Source: Botryococcus braunii (lineage: Eukaryota; Chlorophyta; Trebouxiophyceae). From it: a DNA stretch of 64,000 nucleotides. Positions within the stretch are counted from its first letter, which is position 1. Every line of letters starts with the position of its first letter. Under the pieces are notes generated by a model. It had not been told where the DNA came from, searched no databases, and worked only from the letters and a program-made list of their open reading frames with translations. Below, piece after piece: positions 1,548-61,106 of the stretch. A program made the position numbers and the translations under genes. The stretch lies in assembly GCA_002005505.1 (NCBI GenBank), contig MVGU01001123.1, forward strand, positions 128,501-192,500. Direction: 5' to 3'.

Positions 1548-2139
1548 TGTTGAGTTCTGAACATTAATAGTGAATGCCTTGTGCTTTAAGTGATCTTCAT
1601 GTGTGCACTATTAGGATAGGGGTCCATTGAGAACCTAAGATACCTTGAGACACATTAGTTTGTGGACGCTTTTAAACATAAGGTACAATCTGATCTAGAT
1701 TACACGTTTGTCGGGTGAACTCTTAAGGCTGCCCCACCGGTGTGAATGCCAACTGGTTGTGAAAGATGCTGGGCATTTCCAGATGCTAGCCTTGTCCAAC
1801 AGTTGTGCATGATACTCAGCAGACAGTCGTACGGACTGCAGCGGGAATACCTGCATCTACTGACGACCTGTCTGCCGTGTACAGGTACGGTGCGGGAGTG
1901 TGTGTTGTATCATTGTTGCTGGAGTGAGAGTGAACAAGCTTAGTGTACCCTGTAGTCACTTAAACAGACAAGGGACAGTTACTGCAGGGAGTATAGGCAT
2001 GTACTTGAACGTAGCCGCCTAGAGCCTTATTTAGTACTTGCTTGATCGGTGCTTGAGTGCCATACAATGATGTAACGGAACTGGTTGTGAAAGATGCTGG
2101 GCATTTCCAGATGCTAGTCTTGTCCAACAGTTGTGCATG
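1548..2139 (+). repeat. Solo copia LTR H, first part
   Basis: H starts TGTTGAGTTC and is the plus-strand counterpart of the LTRs of element D (reverse complement of 22978-23671). It shares the U3 motif GTACCTTATG, here seen as CATAAGGTAC near 1680. R1 lies at 1751-1884, ends GTACAG and is followed at once by GTACGG. R2 starts at 2079 and is broken at 2139 by element K (TSD GCATG at 2135-2139). The LTR resumes at 40125. Without the insert it is about 700 bp and is flanked by TSD GTAAC, so it is a solo LTR left by recombination. Confidence 0.88.
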
Positions 2140-2147
2140 TGTGGATC

Positions 2148-2437
2148 CTGCAAGATCCAGTTTGGATTTAATGTTATATGTCACAAATAATTAGACACAC
2201 ACAAGTGTCATCCAGATAAGTAAACAATGTCAACATCAACACCATCACTATGTGAAAGCAGTTAAAAGGTCAGACTGATCTCTCTTGATCTGAACACATG
2301 CATCCACGATGCCAAACACAGATGAGAGTTAATTTAGATCAGGCTGTGAGTCAGAGTTTTTGACAACACGATGTTTCAAAAACACTATCGATTGACTTAC
2401 ACGGGCAGTATACGACACTGACCTATCTAACGATTAC
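2148..2437 (-). other. Predicted R1-to-R2 intron of K (290 bp)
   Basis: Minus strand: the donor GTAATC follows the CAG at the end of R1. The acceptor is the CAG at the end of R2, followed by GATCCACA, the LTR end. Splicing would remove the spacer plus all of R2, leaving R1 (itself spliced) joined to the last 8 bp of the LTR. This is inferred from sequence only. Confidence 0.6.
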
Positions 2438-2502
2438 CTGCAAGATCCAGTTTGGATTTAATGTTATATGTCACAAATAATTAGACACACACAAGTGTCA
2501 TC

Positions 2503-2588
2503 CTGTGCATATTGATCACATTAGTACCTTGCTGGTAACCATCTTACGACCATTTCTCATATGCTAACGTGCAGCATTAACTGCTTAC
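2503..2588 (-). other. Predicted intron in R1 of K (86 bp)
   Basis: On the minus strand this segment begins GTAAGC and ends TGCACAG. It is absent, to the base, from the paired repeat R2 at 2212/2213, where the flanking blocks of 65 and 58 bp are joined directly. The clean boundaries and consensus splice sites indicate an intron rather than a random indel. Confidence 0.85.
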
Positions 2589-2646
2589 CAGATAAGCAAA
2601 CAATGTCAACATCAACACCATCACTATGTGAAAGCAGTTAAAAGGT

Positions 2647-2735
2647 CTGCACGTAAGCAACATTATCATTAGTTCAAAATCAGATGCAGCACTTATGGCT
2701 GTCACAACAACGTCAGCGACGAACGTATGCCTTAC
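2647..2735 (-). other. Predicted intron in R1 of K (89 bp)
   Basis: On the minus strand this segment begins GTAAGG and ends ACGTGCAG. It is precisely missing from R2, where the 58-bp and 127-bp blocks meet at 2270/2271. With the 86-bp intron it accounts for the whole length difference between R1 (425 bp) and R2 (250 bp). Confidence 0.85.
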
Positions 2736-3101
2736 CAGACTGATCTCTCTTGATCTGAACACATGCATCCACCTTGCCACACACAGATGAGAGTTAATTT
2801 AGATCAGGCTGTGAGTCAGAGTCTTTTGCAACACGATGTTTCAAAAACACTATCGATTGACTGCCTGAGGCTTCGTTCAGTCGCAGCTAGTATTATCAGA
2901 TCAGCGCGTTGAATTGCGCTGTTCTGACCCTTTTTTCACGAATTCCTATCAGGATCTAAGTTCAGGGCCTTGGAAATAGGCCCTTATCCTAATATGGGTC
3001 CATCATTTTATTAGCTGTTAGGATAAGCCCATGTCTGATAATCACAAACATTCTGCAGGACGTTCTCTGCCTTGTTCTTAAATGTCTCTATCATCAGTAC
3101 T

Positions 3102-3793
3102 TGTTGTAGTAGATGAATAATTTATGCCTTTCCCTCAGTGGAGTAATAGTGGCTTTTCCGTCAGTGACAATAATAAGGGACAAATAGGGCGAAACGGTAA
3201 AGACATGGTAGTCATGGTCAATTTGAATGTAGATAAAGGTAACGCAAGTTACAGACACGTTTAGTGCAGGAAGGTACTGTTGCTTGGACGGAGAGGCAAG
3301 GCACTTGATTGGGACTACACAAGCACTCCGGGTGTTTCCTCAAAGTTGCCCAATCAGTCCTTGATTGTTCATGTCCTAGACTCTACTCATCATCGTACAG
3401 TAGAGCGGACCTTGACTTACACCCTCCGTGCCGCCACTGCACAGGTAACGTTAATATGATTGGAATAAGAAATTTGAGGCTCTGCTAGCCTTTAGTATTG
3501 CATGTTATGTGTATGTGCTTGGCTTTCTTATCATCGGACAATGAGATTGTTGCTTTCTGAGTGTGTACCAGTTAGGGTAGTTTGAATTCCGTTGTTAAGA
3601 GAGTGAGAGAGAGCAATTGTAATAGACTTGATTGGGACTACACAAGCACTCCGGGTGTTTCCTCAAAGTTGCTCAATCAGTCCTTGATTGTTCATGTCCT
3701 AGACTCTACTCCTCATCGCACAGTAGAGCGGACCTTGACTTACACCCTCCGTGCCGCCACTGCACAGGAATACGCCAAGCCCATAACCTAACA
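3102..3793 (+). repeat. Element A 5' LTR
   Basis: This 692-bp LTR runs TGTTGTAG...CCTAACA. R1 is 3303-3444 and R2 is 3626-3767, both 142 bp and nearly identical. R1 ends CTGCACAG followed by GTAACG; R2 ends CTGCACAG followed by GAATAC. The predicted intron is therefore 3445-3767 (323 bp). U5 ends with CCCATAACC (3780-3788), complementary to the core of the adjacent primer-binding site. Confidence 0.92.
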
Positions 3794-3806
3794 GCTTATG
3801 GGCCCA
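3794..3806 (+). promoter_or_regulatory. Element A primer-binding site (tRNA-iMet anticodon type)
   Basis: The sequence GCTTATGGGCCCA directly follows the LTR. Eleven bases (TTATGGGCCCA) are complementary to the eukaryotic initiator tRNA-Met anticodon stem-loop (UGGGCCCAUAA), not to its 3' end. Drosophila copia and yeast Ty5 are known to prime from a tRNA-iMet half molecule in this way. Confidence 0.8.
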
Positions 3807-9916: not shown

Positions 9917-10340
9917 AATGGACACTGGGGCTACCCATTCCTTTGTCCGAGGCAAAGTACTACAAGGGCTTAGGTATCACAAGGAAGCAACAACAGTAGT
10001 CCTTGCAGATGGGTCATTGTCTGAAACCAAGGGGAAGGTTGACCTTAGTGTTAGGTTCACCCCTTCGGTAGTCACCCGCCATACTTTCTTTGTATGTGAT
10101 TCTATCATGGAGGGAGTGGATCTCATTTTGGGTCAAGACTGGATGTCTCCCAGGGAAGCCACAGTCAGTGTTGGGGTTGGGAAAGCACAAATAAAACATC
10201 AAGGGAAGTGGGTAACGTTGGACCCTCACAAGGAAAGTCTTACCCTGCACGTTGCAATGGGGTATGAACATAGTGAGGAAGGGGATGAACAAAGTAGATC
10301 AATGGAAACTTTGTCTGTTGAATGTTGTCATGAGACCTGA
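9917..10340 (+). pseudogene. Gypsy B aspartic protease
   Basis: The segment resumes after b2 with the retropepsin active site MDTGATHSFV and continues with a flap-like region and GVDLILGQDWM, the hydrophobic ILG motif typical of gypsy proteases. The enzyme cleaves the Gag-Pol polyprotein inside particles. The frame ends at 10340, while RT is read in the next frame (open from 10252), so there is either a frameshift mutation or a recoding site in the overlap. Confidence 0.8.
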
Positions 10341-12990
10341 AGAGTATGCATGGGATGAGCAGGAGTCATCCCGGGAGGAAAACGGGCTCGATCCCTCCGA
10401 CGACGAATTTCACATCTCCTCAACCAACTCCACGGGACCGGGTACCCAGGGCGGGCCGGTCCCGGAATTATTCTCGGAACCCCCAGTGGAGGGGGAGGAA
10501 GAGGGAATAATAGAGGAGGAGGAGGAACAAACGTCGTCGTCGGATAAGCTCACGGGATCTTTGGGACTGGAGGAGGTGTTGAAGGGCAAACCGGAACAAT
10601 TGGGGGTGCTCCTTAGGGAGTACAGTGATTTGTTTCCTCAAGGTTTGCCAGGATTGCCACCGCACAGACAGGTGCATCACACCATCAGGATACAACCTGG
10701 CTCTGTACCTCCTAATAAGCCTGCTTATCGTTTATCTTCTCTAGAAATGGAAGAGTGTACTAAAACAGTGGATGAGCTTCTCGCATTAGGGCACATCCGG
10801 CCCAGTCACTCACCTTATGCATCTCCTGTTCTTTTTGTTAAAAAGAAGGAAGGAACTTATAGGATGGTAATTGATTATAGAGCTGTCAACCAGATTACCA
10901 TTCCGGATAGGTACCCCTTGCCCCGGATTGATGATTTGCTTGATAGGCTCAAAGGAGCAAAGGTCTTCTCAAGCCTGGACTTATTGAGCGGATACCATCA
11001 AGTCCGGCTTAAAGAAGAAGATATCCCAAAGACAGCATTTAGAACACCATTTGGGTTGTACGAGTTTCTGGTGCTCCCCTTTGGTTTCACGAATGCTCCG
11101 GCCACTTTTCAGCGGCTGATGAATGAAATCTTCCATAATTTCATTCGGGAGGGATTTGTCGTTGTCTATTTGGATGATGTGCTCACTTTCAGCAAGGATG
11201 AAAACATGCATTATGTTCATTTGGAAAAAGTCTTTGCTCGCTTGTGAGAGAAGCAACTCTTTGCCAAGCTACCCAAGTGTGAGTTCATGCGTTCTGAACT
11301 TCGATACTTGGGGCATATCATTGGAAGGGATGGATTAAAGGTGGACCCACAAAAGGTGGAAGTAGTCAAGGAATGGCCCGTACCCAAAAACACCACGGAT
11401 GTCCGTAGGTTTCTGGGCCTTGCAAACTACTTCAGGAAGTTTATCAGGGACTTTAGTGCCGTCGCTGCTCCTTTAACAAAGTTGTCAAGCAGCAAGAGGG
11501 CATGGGAATGGGAATTGGAACAGGAGGAATCTTTTTCAGCATTGAAGACTGCTTTGGTAGAGGCCCCTATCTTATCACTACCTGATCTTCGGAAACCATT
11601 TCAAGTGACATGTGATGCAAGTGATTTTGGGGTGGGAGCAGTTCTCATGCATGACGGGAAAGTAGTAGCATACTATAGCAAAAAGTTGAATAGTGCAGAG
11701 CGTAACTATTCTGCTACGGAAAGGGAATTGCTGGCTGTAGTGTATGCTCTACAGGAATGGAGATGTTATGTGTTAGGAAAACCTCTCACTGTAACCACTG
11801 ACCATAAGTGTAATACCTTTTTGCAACAACAGGCAGGACTTAGCCCGAGAAGAGCTAGGTGGGCTGAGCGATTGCAGGAGTTTGACATACTCTGGGTTTG
11901 GGAGCCAGGCAAGACTAACGTCGCAGATGCCTTGTCCAGGGTCCCAATCCTCGCGGCCAGGCAGCTCCGACGCAACGGCGAGCCAGCGGAGCCCGAGCTC
12001 AGGAGTGTCAAGCCCCGGGTCGCAATGGACTCCGGCGGGAGGGCCCGCCCGAGCGGAGTCACCCAGCAGCTTGACACGTGTGAACCCTTCCTGGAGTTAG
12101 TAAAGAGGGCTTACATGGATGATGAGTGGTTGGGAAAGAGGTCGAACAGAAGGAAGGTGCATTTCAGGAATGGGATATGGGAATATGGGAAGGAGGGACG
12201 GAAGTATGTCCCAGGGCATTATGAGGTGAAGGATGGGGAAGGAGTCGTGGGGAGAAACCTAAGACAAGATATACTCAAGGCATTGCATGAACCTTTGTAT
12301 GTGGGACACCCTGGTTTTGCCAAGATGTATGAACTGGTGAAACGGGAATGGTGGTGGCCGGGAATGACAGAGGACGTGCGGGAATATGTTGCCTACTGTG
12401 ATTCTTGTCAAAGGGTTAAAGCTTCAAACAAGTTGCCCGCAGGCCTCCTTCACCCCTTGCAAATCCCGACTAGGAAATGGCAAAGCATTTCCATGGATTT
12501 CATAACAGGGTTGCCACGGAGTGCAAACGGGAATGATGCCATATGGGTTGTGGTGGACCGGTTAAGTAAGTGTGCTCACTTTGTGCCCACCACCACAAAA
12601 GCTGACTCATATGATGTAGCAGTTTTGCTAAGGGATAAAGTCTGGAGATACCACGGATTTCCAGAGGAACTTGTGTCGGATAGGGATCCTAAGTTTGTGA
12701 GTAAATTTATGGATATACTCCTAAATTTAACAGGCTGCAAACCTGCACGGTCTACAGCCTATCACCCACAATCTGACGGACAAACGGAACGGGTTAACAG
12801 GATTCTTGAGGACTACCTCAAACATTATGTTTGGGATAAGCCTAAAGAATGGGAAAACCATCTGGCTGTTGCAGAGATTGCCTATAACAATACCTGGCAA
12901 GCCTCGATCAACACCACACCGTTCCGCTTGACATATGGACAGGACCCAAACATTCCATTTGCTATGGGACACATGGGGGGGGGGGTGTAA
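10341..12990 (+). pseudogene. pol: Gypsy B reverse transcriptase, RNase H, integrase
   Basis: The acidic linker is followed by RT (about 10600-11245) with [45 protein letters not shown] and the catalytic YLDD box. A TGA at 11245-11247 replaces a codon in the conserved RL-REK segment; the same frame continues after it. RNase H follows (VTCDASDFGVGAVL, TDHKCN, NVADALSR), then the integrase HHCC zinc region (HPGF...CDSCQRVK) and catalytic core (SMDFITGL, VSDRDPKF, HPQSDGQTERVNR). An 11-G run at 12975-12985 throws the frame off, ending it at 12990; the tail continues in another frame. Confidence 0.9.
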
Positions 12991-13630
12991 AGCAGATCGG
13001 GCAGATCTTCTCCTCCGGAAGATGCAAGACTCCCTTACTCTTGCACGGAAGTTTTTGGCTGCAGCTCAGGAGCGGCAGGCGGCCCAGGCGAACCGCCACC
13101 GCCGGGCTGTGATCTATAAGGAGGGGGACCTTGTTCTCCTTCGGACGAAGTTCCCAGCCGCCCTGACGTCGCAGAAGTACATAAAGCTTGCCAGGCGCCG
13201 GATTGGACCCTTCCGGGTCACTGCCGTCCATCCCAACTCTGTTGAGCTGGACGTCCCCGCCGCCCTGAAGTTTCACCCACGCATAATCGTGGAATATGTG
13301 GACCTCTACAAGGGGCCACGTAACCCAGACCGCCTCAGCATTTACAAATACAAGCCGGGGCCACGCATGGTCAAGGGCGATGACGGCACGGAGAATGCCG
13401 AGTACGTCGTGGACGGCATCCTCGGTCACCGTCCCTTGATGAAGGGGAACCGGGCCCTCCACTTCCCGGACGGTACCCCAGCCTACCAGTACTGGGTACT
13501 GTGGTCAGGTTATGACGTCAGAGACAACTGGGAGCCCTTGGGCATGTTCGACCACGCAAAGGACACCATCAACGCCTACCACCGTCACCAGGAGTTGGGC
13601 CCGCCCAAGTGGGGCGAGACGGCCGTTTGA
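12991..13630 (+). pseudogene. Gypsy B integrase tail with chromodomain-like end
   Basis: This is in the frame shifted after the G run (open from 12935). It encodes the GPY/F-type integrase C-terminus (GDLVLLRTKFPA, RRIGPFRV, ELDVPAALKFHP), then a segment with YWVLWSGYDVRDNWEP, the aromatic/acidic signature of a chromodomain. In chromoviruses this tail guides integration toward particular chromatin. It ends at a normal stop, 13628-13630. Confidence 0.8.
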
Positions 13631-15470: not shown

Positions 15471-16915
15471 CAGCAGTCCAGCAACTGCAAGGCATGTGGC
15501 CTCAGGGCCAGCCTCCAGTGGGTGGCCCCCATCCTCCAGTAGCACAACTGGCCCATCACGGTGCAGAAGCCTTCCCTGCATGGTTTCAGCCTCCTGCTCC
15601 ACCTCCACCTCCTCCAGAAGGTATGCAGTACACAATATCCCACAATGTTCTGGACAGTACGATCAGTAAACCCTTACTGCACTCCTGGCTAGTAGACAGT
15701 GGGGCGTCAGTGCATCTAGTAAATGACGTGGCATTGCTGCATAATCCAATCATCCATGCCAAACCAATCCCCCTGCACTTGGCTGCCTCTGATGCCACTG
15801 GTTGTATTATTGCATCGGGATCAGTCTATATTTTGAGTCCTCAACGCATTCCCCTCTGGATTCACCATGTGCAGTGTGTTCCCTTAGCTACCACCAACAT
15901 CCTCTCAGTGTCTGCTGCCCTTAGGGACGGTGCAGTGTTCCAAACAGACAATGTGGGTGCCTTTTCGTATGTCAGTGGACCAAACCACTGGAGGGCCCAG
16001 GTCACTACAGAGATGGGACTTTACTACATTCACAGTGTAGTTGCAGTGAGAGGGACCAGCACGTTAAAGCATGCAGCTAGTGCAACCAAACAGTCAAAGT
16101 CCAGTCCTCTGTCACACAACTGTGCCAGACGTTGCTTATGGCACAGCAGAATGGGACACCCTGGAGACACGTGGATGCAGCGTCTAGCTAAGGAGAACCT
16201 GGTGTCTGGGATTGACACCTCTCTCTCTCCCTGTACTGACTGCCCAGTGCACTGTGAAGCTTGTATTGAAGGAAAGATTGCCAGACCCTCTTTTGGAACC
16301 AGCACCAGAACCCCTGGACCGAGTGCACATAGATACTGTGGGTCCCATTACACCTGCAACTATTACTGGGGAACGCTTGTGGGTCACTGTACTAGATGAA
16401 GCCTCTCAGTGGAAAGCTCTTGTCCCAGTAAAGTCCAAAGACACCATCAGCGCAGCAGTCAGGGACTTACTCGTTTACTGGCAGACACAAAGGAAAAATA
16501 CTGTGAAGTGTATCAGATGTGACAGAGGAACTGAATTTATCAATGCTCGGTTGCAGCTTAGTCCCCAAGCTGCAGACCTCTGCTCCCTACACCCCACAGC
16601 AGAATGGAGTGGCAGAACGAGCCAACCGAACCATGAAGGAAAGAACCCGGACCGTCCTGGCCTTTGCTGCAGCCAGTCCCACCCTCTGGAAAGAAGCACT
16701 GGAGACAGCATGCACCCTGCTCAACATGGGCCCAAGTACAGGCAGGGACCTTACCCCCTTTGAGTTATTCTGGGAATATAAGCCTGATGTCTCACTTCTG
16801 CGCACATGGGGTTGCCTAGCATATGTGCATATCCCAGATGTACAGAGGCCAGTCTTTGCACCTAAAACTGTGCCGGGAATGCTCACCGGGTATTCAGCTT
16901 CCTCCAAAGCTTATC
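15466..16915 (+). pseudogene. Element A protease and integrase
   Basis: Copia order is visible: protease active site DSGASVHLVND near 15700, the GAG-pre-integrase zinc region (WHSRMGHPG...CEACIEGK) near 16140-16270, and the integrase core with RVHIDTVGP, RCDRGTEF and TPQQNGVAERANRT (D, D, E). Reading it needs three frames, so at least two indels lie in the integrase (near 16290 and 16545). The protein is cut at 16915 inside SSKAY, where copia C entered, and resumes at 22796 with RIYKGGG. Confidence 0.88.
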
Positions 16916-17667
16916 TGTTACATTTTGTGACATATAGTGAGATTGCCTTCCTCTTGAACAGACATGAACTCTTGAAAGGAACTGATAAACATTGGCATGA
17001 ACAAAGGCATACATGAGACGATTATCACAGAGAAGTGTAATTGAGCACAAGGTCATGTTATGAATAGTGTCGTACGGTATTCGCACGTGGTTGCCAGATC
17101 AACGCGTGATCTTGCAACGCTGGTATTTGAAAGGCAAGCAGCGGAGTTGAATGTCACTTGCCTAGCACTATCAATGATTGATGCATGTGTGAAGACAGCA
17201 AGTGTTTTGCTTATGGCGTAAGGCCGTCACACGGACTGCCTAGCCAACTAAGACAACTGATCACTCGCTCTGCTCGTGCTTGCAAGTAAGGCCGATTGGC
17301 CTAGTTAGACATGTTAAGACATGCATGGACAAGTTACTTGCTTACTATAACTTAATTGTTGAACATCTGTATCTTCATCGGTTGTGGGTGTCATACCTAT
17401 GAGTGAAGATCAGGGAGACAAGTGTCGTGCAAGATATTTGTTAGCGTATGCAAGGATTTATGTTATGGAGGCTCAACTGCGTTAGCATAAGAAGACTCTA
17501 AATGTAAACACTTGCCTAGCACTATCAATGATTGATGCATGTGTGAAGACAGCAAGTGTTTTGCTTATGGCGTAAGGCCGTCACACGGACTGCCTAGCCA
17601 ACTATGACAACTGATCACTCGCTCTGCTCGTGCTTGCAGGTCTTCAGCCCATAACCTAAATGTAAGA
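16916..17667 (+). repeat. Copia C 5' LTR
   Basis: 752 bp, TGTTACATTT...ATGTAAGA; the last two bases are GA rather than the usual CA, in both LTRs. R1 is 17155-17285 and R2 is 17509-17639, both 131 bp. R1 is followed by GTAAGG and R2 ends CTTGCAG|G, so the predicted intron is 17286-17639. In this copy R1 ends CAA rather than CAG, the base that differs from the 3' LTR. U5 contains CCCATAACC. Confidence 0.92.
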
Positions 17668-17680
17668 GGTTATGGGCCCA
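17668..17680 (+). promoter_or_regulatory. Copia C primer-binding site
   Basis: GGTTATGGGCCCA follows the LTR directly and is a 13-base complement of the initiator tRNA-Met anticodon stem-loop. Confidence 0.85.
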
Positions 17681-29298: not shown

Positions 29299-29311
29299 TG
29301 GGCCCATAACC
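29299..29311 (-). promoter_or_regulatory. Copia D primer-binding site
   Basis: Minus-strand GGTTATGGGCCCA abuts the 5' LTR and complements the tRNA-iMet anticodon loop. U5 ends CCCATAACCTTTTACA, giving an inverted repeat across the junction. Confidence 0.85.
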
Positions 29312-30005
29312 TGTAAAAGGTTATGGGCAATCGGCTTTCCCTGTACAAAGCAGACAGGTCGTTAATAGACGAACTTACTCCAGCTACAGTCCGTACGACT
29401 GTCTGCTGAGTGCCACACACAACTGTTGGACAAGACTAGCATCTGGTAATGCCCAGCATCTTTCACAACCAGTTCCGTTACATCATTATCTTGTACACAA
29501 GCACCGATCAAGCAATCACTAGATAAGGCTCTAGACGGCTACGTTCAAGTACATGCCTATACTCCCTGAAGTCACTGTCCCTTATCTGTTTGAGTGACTA
29601 CAGGGTACACTAAGCTTGTTCACTCTCACAATAGCAACAATGATACAACACACACTGCCGCACCGTACCTGTACAAAGCAGACAGGTCGTCAATAGACGA
29701 AGTTACTCCAGCTACAGTCCGTACGACTGTCTGCTGAGTGCCACACACAACTGTTGGACAAGACTAGCATCTGGTAATGCCCAGCATCTTTCACAACCAG
29801 TTGGTATTCACTCCGGTGGGGCAGCTTTAAGAGTTCATCCGACAAACGTGTGATCTAGATAGGATTGTACCTTATGTTCGAAAACGTCCAGAATCTGCCG
29901 TGTCTCAAGGTACCTTATGTTCTCAATGGACCAATATCCTAATAGTGCACACATGAAGATCACTTAAAGCACAAGGCATTCAATAATAATGTTCAGAACT
30001 CAACA
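29312..30005 (-). repeat. Copia D 5' LTR
   Basis: 694 bp. R1 is 29669-29802 and R2 is 29341-29474, 134 bp each with about two differences. The predicted intron is 29341-29668, with donor GTACGG and acceptor TGTACAG. U3 holds two copies of GTACCTTATG (near 29867 and 29910). Confidence 0.92.
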
Positions 30006-39978: not shown

Positions 39979-39983
39979 GTACT

Positions 39984-40119
39984 TGTGGCCAAGAGGCCAC
40001 TGGCTGTTTATCAAAGAGTTTTTCCCTTGAGTTAATCACGTGGATTGACTATACAGCTACTTTATTCTGACTGAAAGTTGTACCCTTTGGATTGACCTGA
40101 CAGTACACAAATTCCAACA
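39984..40119 (-). repeat. LTR-like element K, second part
   Basis: The 136-bp remainder of K after element A ends CCAACA and is followed by TSD GCATG (40120-40124). Confidence 0.78.
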
Positions 40120-40124
40120 GCATG

Positions 40125-40232
40125 ATACTCAGCAGACAGTCGTACGGACTGCAGCGAGAGTACCTTCATCTACTGACGACCTGTCTGCCATGTACAGGAT
40201 ACGTATACGCCAATGCCCATAACCTTTTTACA
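40125..40232 (+). repeat. Solo copia LTR H, second part
   Basis: R2 of H continues from 2139 (to 40197, ending GTACAG|G; total 134 bp, equal to R1). U5 follows with CCCATAACC and the end TTTTTACA. TSD GTAAC is at 40233-40237. Confidence 0.88.
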
Positions 40233-48099: not shown

Positions 48100-48112
48100 T
48101 GGGCCCATAACC
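48100..48112 (-). promoter_or_regulatory. Copia F primer-binding site
   Basis: Minus-strand GGTTATGGGCCCA abuts the 5' LTR and complements the tRNA-iMet anticodon stem-loop. The U5 partner is degenerate in this family (CCCAGAATA). Confidence 0.85.
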
Positions 48113-48803
48113 TGAAATATTCTGGGCTTGGCGTATCCTGCATGGTGGCGGCACGGAGGGTGTTAGACGATGTCCTCCTACTTGTGCGTTGTTAAGTAGG
48201 CACGGACATATACAAGTCAAGGACTGGTTAGCAACTGATTGATAGACACCCGGAGTGCCACTATAGTTCCAACCAAGTGTTACAATATCTCTCATCTCTC
48301 CTAACAAGGTGACGCAGTTCAAACACGCCTAACCTGCTCTCACCCAGGTCGTGTTCATTACTTTGTCCGATGAGCTAAACTCAACTCTATATGTCTAACA
48401 TGTTCTAACAATGTTCATCTGAGTGCTAAATCCAGGAATACAATAAGGATTAAGTCACCTGCATGGTGGCGGCACGGAGGGTGTTAGACGATGTCCTCCT
48501 ACTTGTGCGTTGTTAAGTAGGCACGGACATATACAAGTCAAGGACTGGTTAGCAACTGATTGATAGACACCCGGAGTGCCACTATAGTTCCAACCAAGTG
48601 CCTTCCCTATCCGTGCTTGCCCCATATGCCTCCTTTCTACAAACGTGTCTGTAACTTGCGTTATGATAGTCTTCGTTCAAATGCATGTATTGCCTGGCAG
48701 AACTCAGGGTTCTGCCTCTCTTTCCTAATTGGTATTGTCTTCATACGGAGACTTGCCATTATTACTCCTCTGAGGGAAAGGCATAAAATTAATTAACACA
48801 ACA
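48113..48803 (-). repeat. Copia F 5' LTR
   Basis: 691 bp; no difference from the 3' LTR noticed. The R1 and R2 repeats and splice-like junctions are the same. Confidence 0.95.
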
Positions 48804-60382: not shown

Positions 60383-60395
60383 TGGGCCCATAACC
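60383..60395 (-). promoter_or_regulatory. Copia E primer-binding site
   Basis: Minus-strand GGTTATGGGCCCA beside the 5' LTR; tRNA-iMet anticodon complement. U5 has the matching CCCATAACC seven bases from the LTR end. Confidence 0.85.
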
Positions 60396-61106
60396 TGTAA
60401 AAGGTTATGGGCAGTGGCGTATCCTGTAAGCAAGCAGACAGGTCGTAAGTTCGTGCCTCTCCAGCTACAGTCCTTGACGACTGTCTGACACATGCAACTG
60501 CATGAACACATGCAACTGCATGAACAAGACTGGCATCCTTATGTGCCCAGTATCTTTCCAAACCAGTTCCGTTACATGTTGATCTGTCAATGAGCATCTA
60601 CACACGGATAAGCTCCTGACGGCTGAAAGCAAGTACCTTCCTATACTCAATCAAGACTCCGTCCCTTAGCTGTTTGGGAGACTTGAATGTACACTAAGAT
60701 GGTTCACTTACAAACAAGCAATCAAACATGAACATATTACCAATACACACCCTACGTCACCGCACCTGTAAGCAAGCAGACAGGTCGTAAGTTCGTGCCT
60801 CTCCAGCTACAGTCCTTGACGACTGTCTGCTCTTTAGACACATGCAACTGCATGAACAAGATTGGCATCCTTATGTGCCGAGTATCTTTCCAAACCAGTT
60901 GCTCGACTATGCGGTGATCGCAGCTTTAATAGTCCTTTCACACTAACGCGTAATCTAGATCATATTGTACCTTATGTTCGAAATAGACCTCATCCGAACG
61001 TGTCTCGAGGTACCTTATGTGGATAGTGGACCCGTATCCTAATAATGTACATTTGAAGATCACCTAAAGCACAAGGCATTCTATAATGTATGTTCACAAC
61101 TCAACA
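60396..61106 (-). repeat. Copia E 5' LTR
   Basis: 711 bp. R1 is 60766-60900 (135 bp). R2 is 60424-60568 (145 bp), longer because a short block around CATGCAACTGCATGAACA is duplicated. The predicted intron is 60424-60765. It carries two GTACCTTATG motifs near 60970 and 61010. Confidence 0.9.

Follow-up and report, generated by a model that had tools for sequence, protein, structure and literature searches.

A Ty1/copia-type LTR of Botryococcus braunii with two R copies, one bearing introns and the other apparently remade from a spliced leader

The stretch of Botryococcus braunii DNA analysed here (64,000 nucleotides, positions 1-64000, hereafter the window) is occupied by nested LTR elements: an outer LTR contains an LTR called K, K contains element A, and elements B, C, D and E are also present. 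A reverse transcriptase-integrase frame at 10216-13630 was assigned to the Ty3 type by eye. The window copy of K is a solo LTR with the target duplication GCATG and is located in the second leader repeat (R2) of the older outer LTR; it is itself interrupted in its U3 by element A, which has the target duplication GTACT. The features of K are listed below.

2861..3101, minus strand: promoter-proximal part of the K U3
39980..40119, minus strand: 5' part of the K U3 (TGTTGG...), cut off by the insertion of element A
2736..2860, minus strand: R1 exon 1, 125 nt; its 5' end is the putative transcription start, with a conserved stretch upstream
2647..2735, minus strand: R1 intron 1, 89 nt, GTAAGG...GTGCAG, with the branch-point-like word ACTAAT
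2589..2646, minus strand: R1 exon 2, 58 nt
2503..2588, minus strand: R1 intron 2, 86 nt, GTAAGC...GCACAG, with the branch-point-like word TACTAAT
2438..2502, minus strand: R1 exon 3, 65 nt, CTTGCAG at its end, followed by the GT donor
2148..2437, minus strand: putative intron 3, consisting of the spacer and the entire R2; donor CAG/GTAATC, acceptor CTTGCAG/GATCC
2396..2437, minus strand: spacer between R1 and R2, 42 nt; mean pairwise identity 92% in 17 copies
2397..2401, minus strand: TGTAA, the chlorophyte poly(A) signal word, just ahead of R2; found in 33 of 35 K copies
2148..2395, minus strand: R2, the R1 exons without introns, 125+58+65 with no gap
2140..2147, minus strand: 3' end of the LTR, GATCCACA, the 8 bases after R2

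The first-pass annotation had described R1 as three exons and two GT-AG introns of 89 and 86 bp on the minus strand, and these coordinates and sizes hold. Its exon lengths of 58 and 65 bp were retained, while the 127 bp given for exon 1 was reduced to 125, the two extra bases being upstream bases shared by both units. R2 had been read as the fused exons with about seven substitutions; spliced R1 and R2 indeed differ at 7 of 248 aligned positions. The ACTAAT and TACTAAT words were judged against the branch-point consensus, and no clear branch point was seen in the sequence of intron 3. The end of exon 3, CAG before G, forms the donor side in R1 and the acceptor in R2, so that every renewal of R2 would also renew the acceptor.

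The layout was then compared among 35 two-unit K LTR copies parsed from the genome, several of which are the two LTRs of one element, so that they do not represent 35 independent insertions. Two three-unit LTRs (L009 and the second copy in L015), four one-unit LTRs (L030-L033), the fragment L029 and a partial second copy in L018 were excluded before this count. Both introns were present in R1 and neither in R2 in all 35 copies, and the terminal GT and AG of each intron were likewise kept in 35 of 35, as was the spacer word GTAATC. Because the intron pattern and the GT and AG ends hold throughout, the layout is not a chance match. TGTAA was found at the end of the spacer in 33 copies and was absent in two, and R2 ended in AG in 34 and lacked it in one. 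Introns in R2 or ragged gaps, which would have spoken against a copy of spliced RNA, were sought in the fetched K copies and none were seen; nor did any of the 35 parsed copies have an intronless R1 that still carried the spacer. The derivation of R2 from spliced R1 was thereby extended from a single LTR to fusion at both GT-AG junctions in every parsed two-unit copy, and the expectation that every R1 has both introns and every R2 has none was borne out in these copies, with one-unit and three-unit LTRs existing beside them. A genome search with R2 gave 151 candidates, 40 of which were scored; all 40 were unbroken over at least 256 of 258 bases, and four of them were one-unit LTRs. Five R2 matches with no R1 match (C222, C25:781726, C153:13947, C114 and C79) proved to be the four one-unit LTRs and one fragment. 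Unit lengths co-vary between R1 and R2, exon 2 being 57, 58, 59 or 60 nt and exon 1 125 or 126 nt, with the exceptions of L017, L026, L037, L041 and L042.

Complete elements such as L024 carry two K LTRs of about 1101 bp each, which start with TGTTGG, end with CCACA and flank a copia-type gag-pol whose coding strand is also that of the introns. The frames of L024 contain GAG-pre-integrase, integrase (rve) and then RVT_2, which places integrase ahead of reverse transcriptase. The paired, near-identical TG...CA LTRs with a primer site directly after the 5' LTR are features of Ty1/copia elements, and the short target-site duplications are 5 bp in both K and A. The primer-site word is complementary to a 14-nt stretch surrounding the anticodon in tRNA-Met genes predicted with ARAGORN (L058 and L060), which we take to be initiator tRNAs from their general features; at L059 the 14-nt word is present with no ARAGORN tRNA call. 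At the LTR ends near 3798, 17672, 60391 and 29307, GCCCATAACC stands a few bases ahead of the primer-site word GGTTATGGGC (GCTTATGGGC in element A), so that pairing between the two could form a hairpin. Matches to ATGGGCCCA at window positions 16726 and 20198 were dropped, as they lie inside reading frames and lack the rest of the primer-site word. A primer-site scan of viral contigs returned three contigs sharing one stretch, in which the repeat layout was absent.

Twenty LTRs with a primer site were examined for the same arrangement: five in the window, two in fetched loci, one K site and 12 genome places, the last being the first of 1898 places of the word GGTTATGGGCCCAC, all 12 on contig C1 (a control with the word read backwards gave 0). 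The canonical U3-R-U5 order with one R was not the rule among them, as the leader unit is repeated, as an R1-spacer-R2 pair, in 19 of the 20 LTRs, L052 having one unit. The repeat pairs of the outer LTR and of elements A to E in the window are as follows.

1751..1885, plus strand: R1 of the outer LTR, which is similar to family C; GT follows
2079..2139, plus strand: first part of R2 of the outer LTR, broken by K with the target duplication GCATG; the rest lies at 40125-40198
3303..3445, plus strand: R1 of element A, 143 nt, intronless, CACAG/GTAACG
3626..3768, plus strand: R2 of element A, TGTAA just ahead, then the LTR end and the primer site at 3798
17155..17285, plus strand: R1 of element B, which ends in CAA instead of CAG
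17509..17639, plus strand: R2 of element B; primer site at 17672
29668..29802, minus strand: R1 of element C, member of a repeat pair
29340..29474, minus strand: R2 of element C; primer site at 29307
60765..60900, minus strand: R1 of element D, member of a repeat pair
60423..60568, minus strand: R2 of element D, 90% identical to R1 in a gapped alignment; primer site at 60391
48458..48600, minus strand: R1 of element E, member of a repeat pair
48137..48279, minus strand: R2 of element E, identical to R1 at 143 of 143 positions; primer site at 48108

TGTAA was located at R2 or no more than 15 nt before it in all 19 pairs, and before R1 in none. A script recovered R1 followed by GT together with R2 ending in AG in 15 of the 19. 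Of the four others, L012 conforms on visual inspection, family B misses by a single base, and an intact site is lacking for the acceptor in L044 and for the donor in L011. In family B, R1 ends CAA/GTAAGG and R2 ends CAG, and the one mismatch between R1 and R2 occurs in both LTRs. Grouping the R sequences of the examined LTRs at 70%, 80% and 90% identity gave 7, 10 and 11 groups, respectively, and the order of donor, TGTAA, R2, acceptor and primer site is evident from the sequences of about ten families. R1 is a single piece of about 130-150 nt in most of them. The distant family L046 has three exons like K, and its spliced R1 and R2 are identical across 239 positions if the ends of intron 1 are set, by eye from the alignment, at GTAAG...TTGCAG; gapped alignments of its exons with those of K give only a loose match (75/125, 39/63 and 47/65).

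Divergence between the units was determined for the 32 K copies with complete units (L025, L026 and L028 were dropped). Spliced R1 and R2 differed by 1.87% on average within a copy versus 9.8% between copies, and the lowest mean obtained in 10,000 random pairings of R1 with R2 was 6.7%. Minor states occurring in at least three loci were shared by both units in 326 cases and confined to one unit in 28; for states private to one locus, the corresponding counts were 25 and 127. No fixed difference between R1 and R2 was detected in 262 columns. The R2 nearest to a given R1 was its own, or that of its own element, in 24 of 32 copies and that of another element in eight. For twelve elements treated as two-LTR elements (seven from K and five from other window families), mean 5'-3' LTR divergence was 0.79% versus a mean R1-R2 divergence of 0.85%, with a Spearman correlation of 0.84. 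Since the two divergences are about equal, R1 and R2 must have been nearly or fully alike at insertion and have since drifted as two LTRs do. Young element pairs have 0 to 2 R1-R2 differences per about 250 positions. In the window, R1-R2 divergence falls from the outer LTR (5/135) to K (7/248) and on to A (4/285), consistent with the order of nesting, although the numbers are small. These comparisons demonstrate at the sequence level near-identity at birth and co-evolution of R1 and R2, and R2 has apparently been renewed at every transposition. The first-pass annotation had proposed that the spliced form is written back into the LTR; this proposal is supported and may be widened from one past event to every cycle: in young copies few or no differences separate R1 from R2, and between subfamilies the two change together.

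Signals expected of a transcribed leader were examined around the units. The interval from -61 to -2 upstream of R1 is 93-96% alike in 17 copies, above the remaining U3 except for a 93% bin at -121. TATA-like scores have a weak highest bin near -30, an equal or better score lies further upstream in eight of 11 families, and three of the 11 lack a convincing TATA-like site near -30. In chlorophytes, UGUAA is described as peaking near -17 from the cleavage site (PMC1868727), which would place cleavage about 10 nt inside R2. Matches to RuBisCO small-subunit exons at two places of one contig, together with TGTAA, are suggestive of a green algal host.

K is the LTR of a Ty1/copia retrotransposon, which most probably replicates through a spliced RNA template. 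The DNA points to splicing of K transcripts, and we infer the start site, RNA splicing, poly(A) use and strand transfer of the following cycle. Transcription would start at the 5' end of R1. Removal of introns 1 and 2 and of a third intron, which comprises the spacer with the poly(A) signal and the entire R2, would connect leader exons 1-3 with the final bases of the LTR. In the 3' LTR, the same poly(A) signal would direct cutting of the RNA a few bases into R2. Reverse transcription primed by a half-tRNA would copy the spliced leader up to the cap, and the resulting strong-stop DNA would pair with the start of R2 at the RNA 3' end, replace R2 and be extended through the spacer, the intron-bearing R1 and U3. 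The daughter LTR would thus read U3-R1(introns)-spacer-R2, with R2 newly made from spliced R1; as R1 would be copied from the 3' part of the RNA and R2 from the spliced leader, R1 would be inherited and R2 remade in each cycle. Without a spliced template, strong-stop DNA would be expected to yield three units or to leave R2 unchanged.

Several observations stand against this cycle. In K it needs the introns of the 3' R1 to stay unspliced while those of the 5' copy are spliced, an asymmetry for which the cycle does not account in K; in families with a single R1 exon, the acceptor of the 3' copy would be lost through poly(A) cleavage. Its cause might be selection for the introns or a cap dependence of first-exon splicing, both of them conjectures. 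The eight of 32 copies to which a foreign R2 is nearer than their own also count against it, as do the exceptions in family B, L044 and L011, the two K copies without TGTAA and the one whose R2 lacks AG. Under the cycle, the family B mismatch could stem from a difference between the two LTRs of the parent.

Other origins of the layout were weighed against the spliced-template cycle. Template switching during reverse transcription or gene conversion might maintain the similarity of R1 and R2, if an intronless R2 arose once, in an ancient event, from spliced RNA, with no further need of a spliced template. Long near-identical direct repeats can recombine, and one-unit and three-unit LTRs exist; exchange of this kind would, however, bring introns into R2 or strip them from R1, neither of which occurs in the 35 parsed copies. 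Ongoing genomic conversion is also not evident, as R1 and R2 diverge after insertion about as fast as LTR pairs, and neither process predicts the placement of GT at R1 and of AG and TGTAA at R2 in about ten families, which leaves this explanation improbable. The fusion of the exons, taken alone, would equally suit a piece of processed cDNA inserted once beside R1, both units now being ordinary parts of the LTR. Such an event predicts that R1 and R2 differ according to the age of the duplication in every copy, which is already contradicted by the 0 to 2 differences per about 250 in young pairs and by the absence of any column separating R1 from R2 among copies that differ by 9.8% on average; it is therefore very unlikely.

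The reverse polarity, with R2 original and R1 having gained two introner-like insertions, would accord with the occurrence of intron 1 at 40 genome places, 25 in known K LTRs and 15 elsewhere. In four of these 15, intron 2 follows at 58 bp as in K, in one (C311:124557-125003) it lies 271 bp away, and 10 have intron 1 only. The search with intron 2 returned 18 genome places. Insertion does not explain why the R1 exons and R2 change together, and three exons with two introns are also present in the distant L046; we consider this origin extremely improbable.

Spliced LTRs with one unit comprise the four in K (L030-L033) and L052, and a primer site follows the LTR in L031. L052 has a single R with no spacer immediately before the primer site and resembles family D by eye. 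Three-unit LTRs with the order R1-spacer-R1-spacer-R2 were observed at L009:4429-5985 and L015:7746-9309, and L015 contains a two-unit LTR with a primer site and a three-unit LTR in apparently one element. The one-unit LTRs fit either strong-stop transfer to R1 or recombination between copies of exon 1. LTRs of both kinds would be by-products allowed by the spliced-template scheme, and recombination between exon 1 copies explains them equally. An interpretation of the three-unit LTRs as products of unspliced strong-stop DNA was set aside; later recombination is as good an explanation, because the two-unit and three-unit LTRs of L015 look like parts of one element.

Drosophila copia and Volvox Osser are Ty1/copia elements primed by a half-tRNA-iMet, and K shares with this group the domain order, the TG...CA LTR, the 5-bp duplications and a primer site matching the anticodon region of tRNA-Met. 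It differs in that R occurs twice in a K-type LTR, with a donor, a spacer and a poly(A) signal in between, that R1 in K and L046 has introns missing from R2, and that only 8 bases follow R2 in K. In textbook retroelement replication, the genomic RNA is unspliced and has one R. Penelope-like elements can keep introns, and have a different reverse transcriptase and no LTR strand transfer. K resembles them as a retroelement whose copies retain spliceosomal introns; unlike them, its introns would persist because one of the two copies escapes the spliced template, and rve and RVT_2 were found instead of a Penelope-type reverse transcriptase. Processed pseudogenes are exon-fused DNA copies of spliced RNA, as R2 appears to be; unlike them, R2 would be remade each cycle at a fixed place in the LTR of its own source.

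The foamy virus LTR, as described in one account, has its major splice donor within R, ahead of the poly(A) signal, and an unspliced genomic transcript is needed (PMC3694450). Judged by sequence alone, the placement of a GT donor ahead of TGTAA inside the LTR appears analogous to the foamy virus arrangement given there; unlike in that account, the reverse-transcribed RNA here would be spliced and R is present twice. The intronless state of R2 in all 35 parsed copies argues against unspliced genomic RNA as the template in K. No report of a doubled R combined with a spliced template was found in the literature titles and abstract openings searched, subscription papers and preprints being outside the scope of that search.

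K and its relatives probably represent a class of LTR retrotransposons with an obligatorily spliced template, in which a gene-like R1 is inherited and a cDNA-like R2 is remade from the spliced leader in each cycle. Spliced RNA is apparently the required template, and the introns would survive through inheritance of the other R copy. If this is true, the intron that removes the 5' poly(A) signal solves the polyadenylation problem of two LTRs, and the R1-R2 difference provides a dating clock for solo LTRs that lack a partner. Avoidance of a 5' poly(A) signal by intron placement becomes testable, as do the selective splicing of the 5' copy of a sequence that one RNA carries at both ends and the recording of splice patterns in DNA generation after generation.

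An additional open frame was observed downstream of the 5' LTR in five K elements. In L024 (positions 1704-2369) it has 222 codons from the LTR end, or 206 from the first ATG after the LTR, has no Pfam match and overlaps the start of the gag frame.
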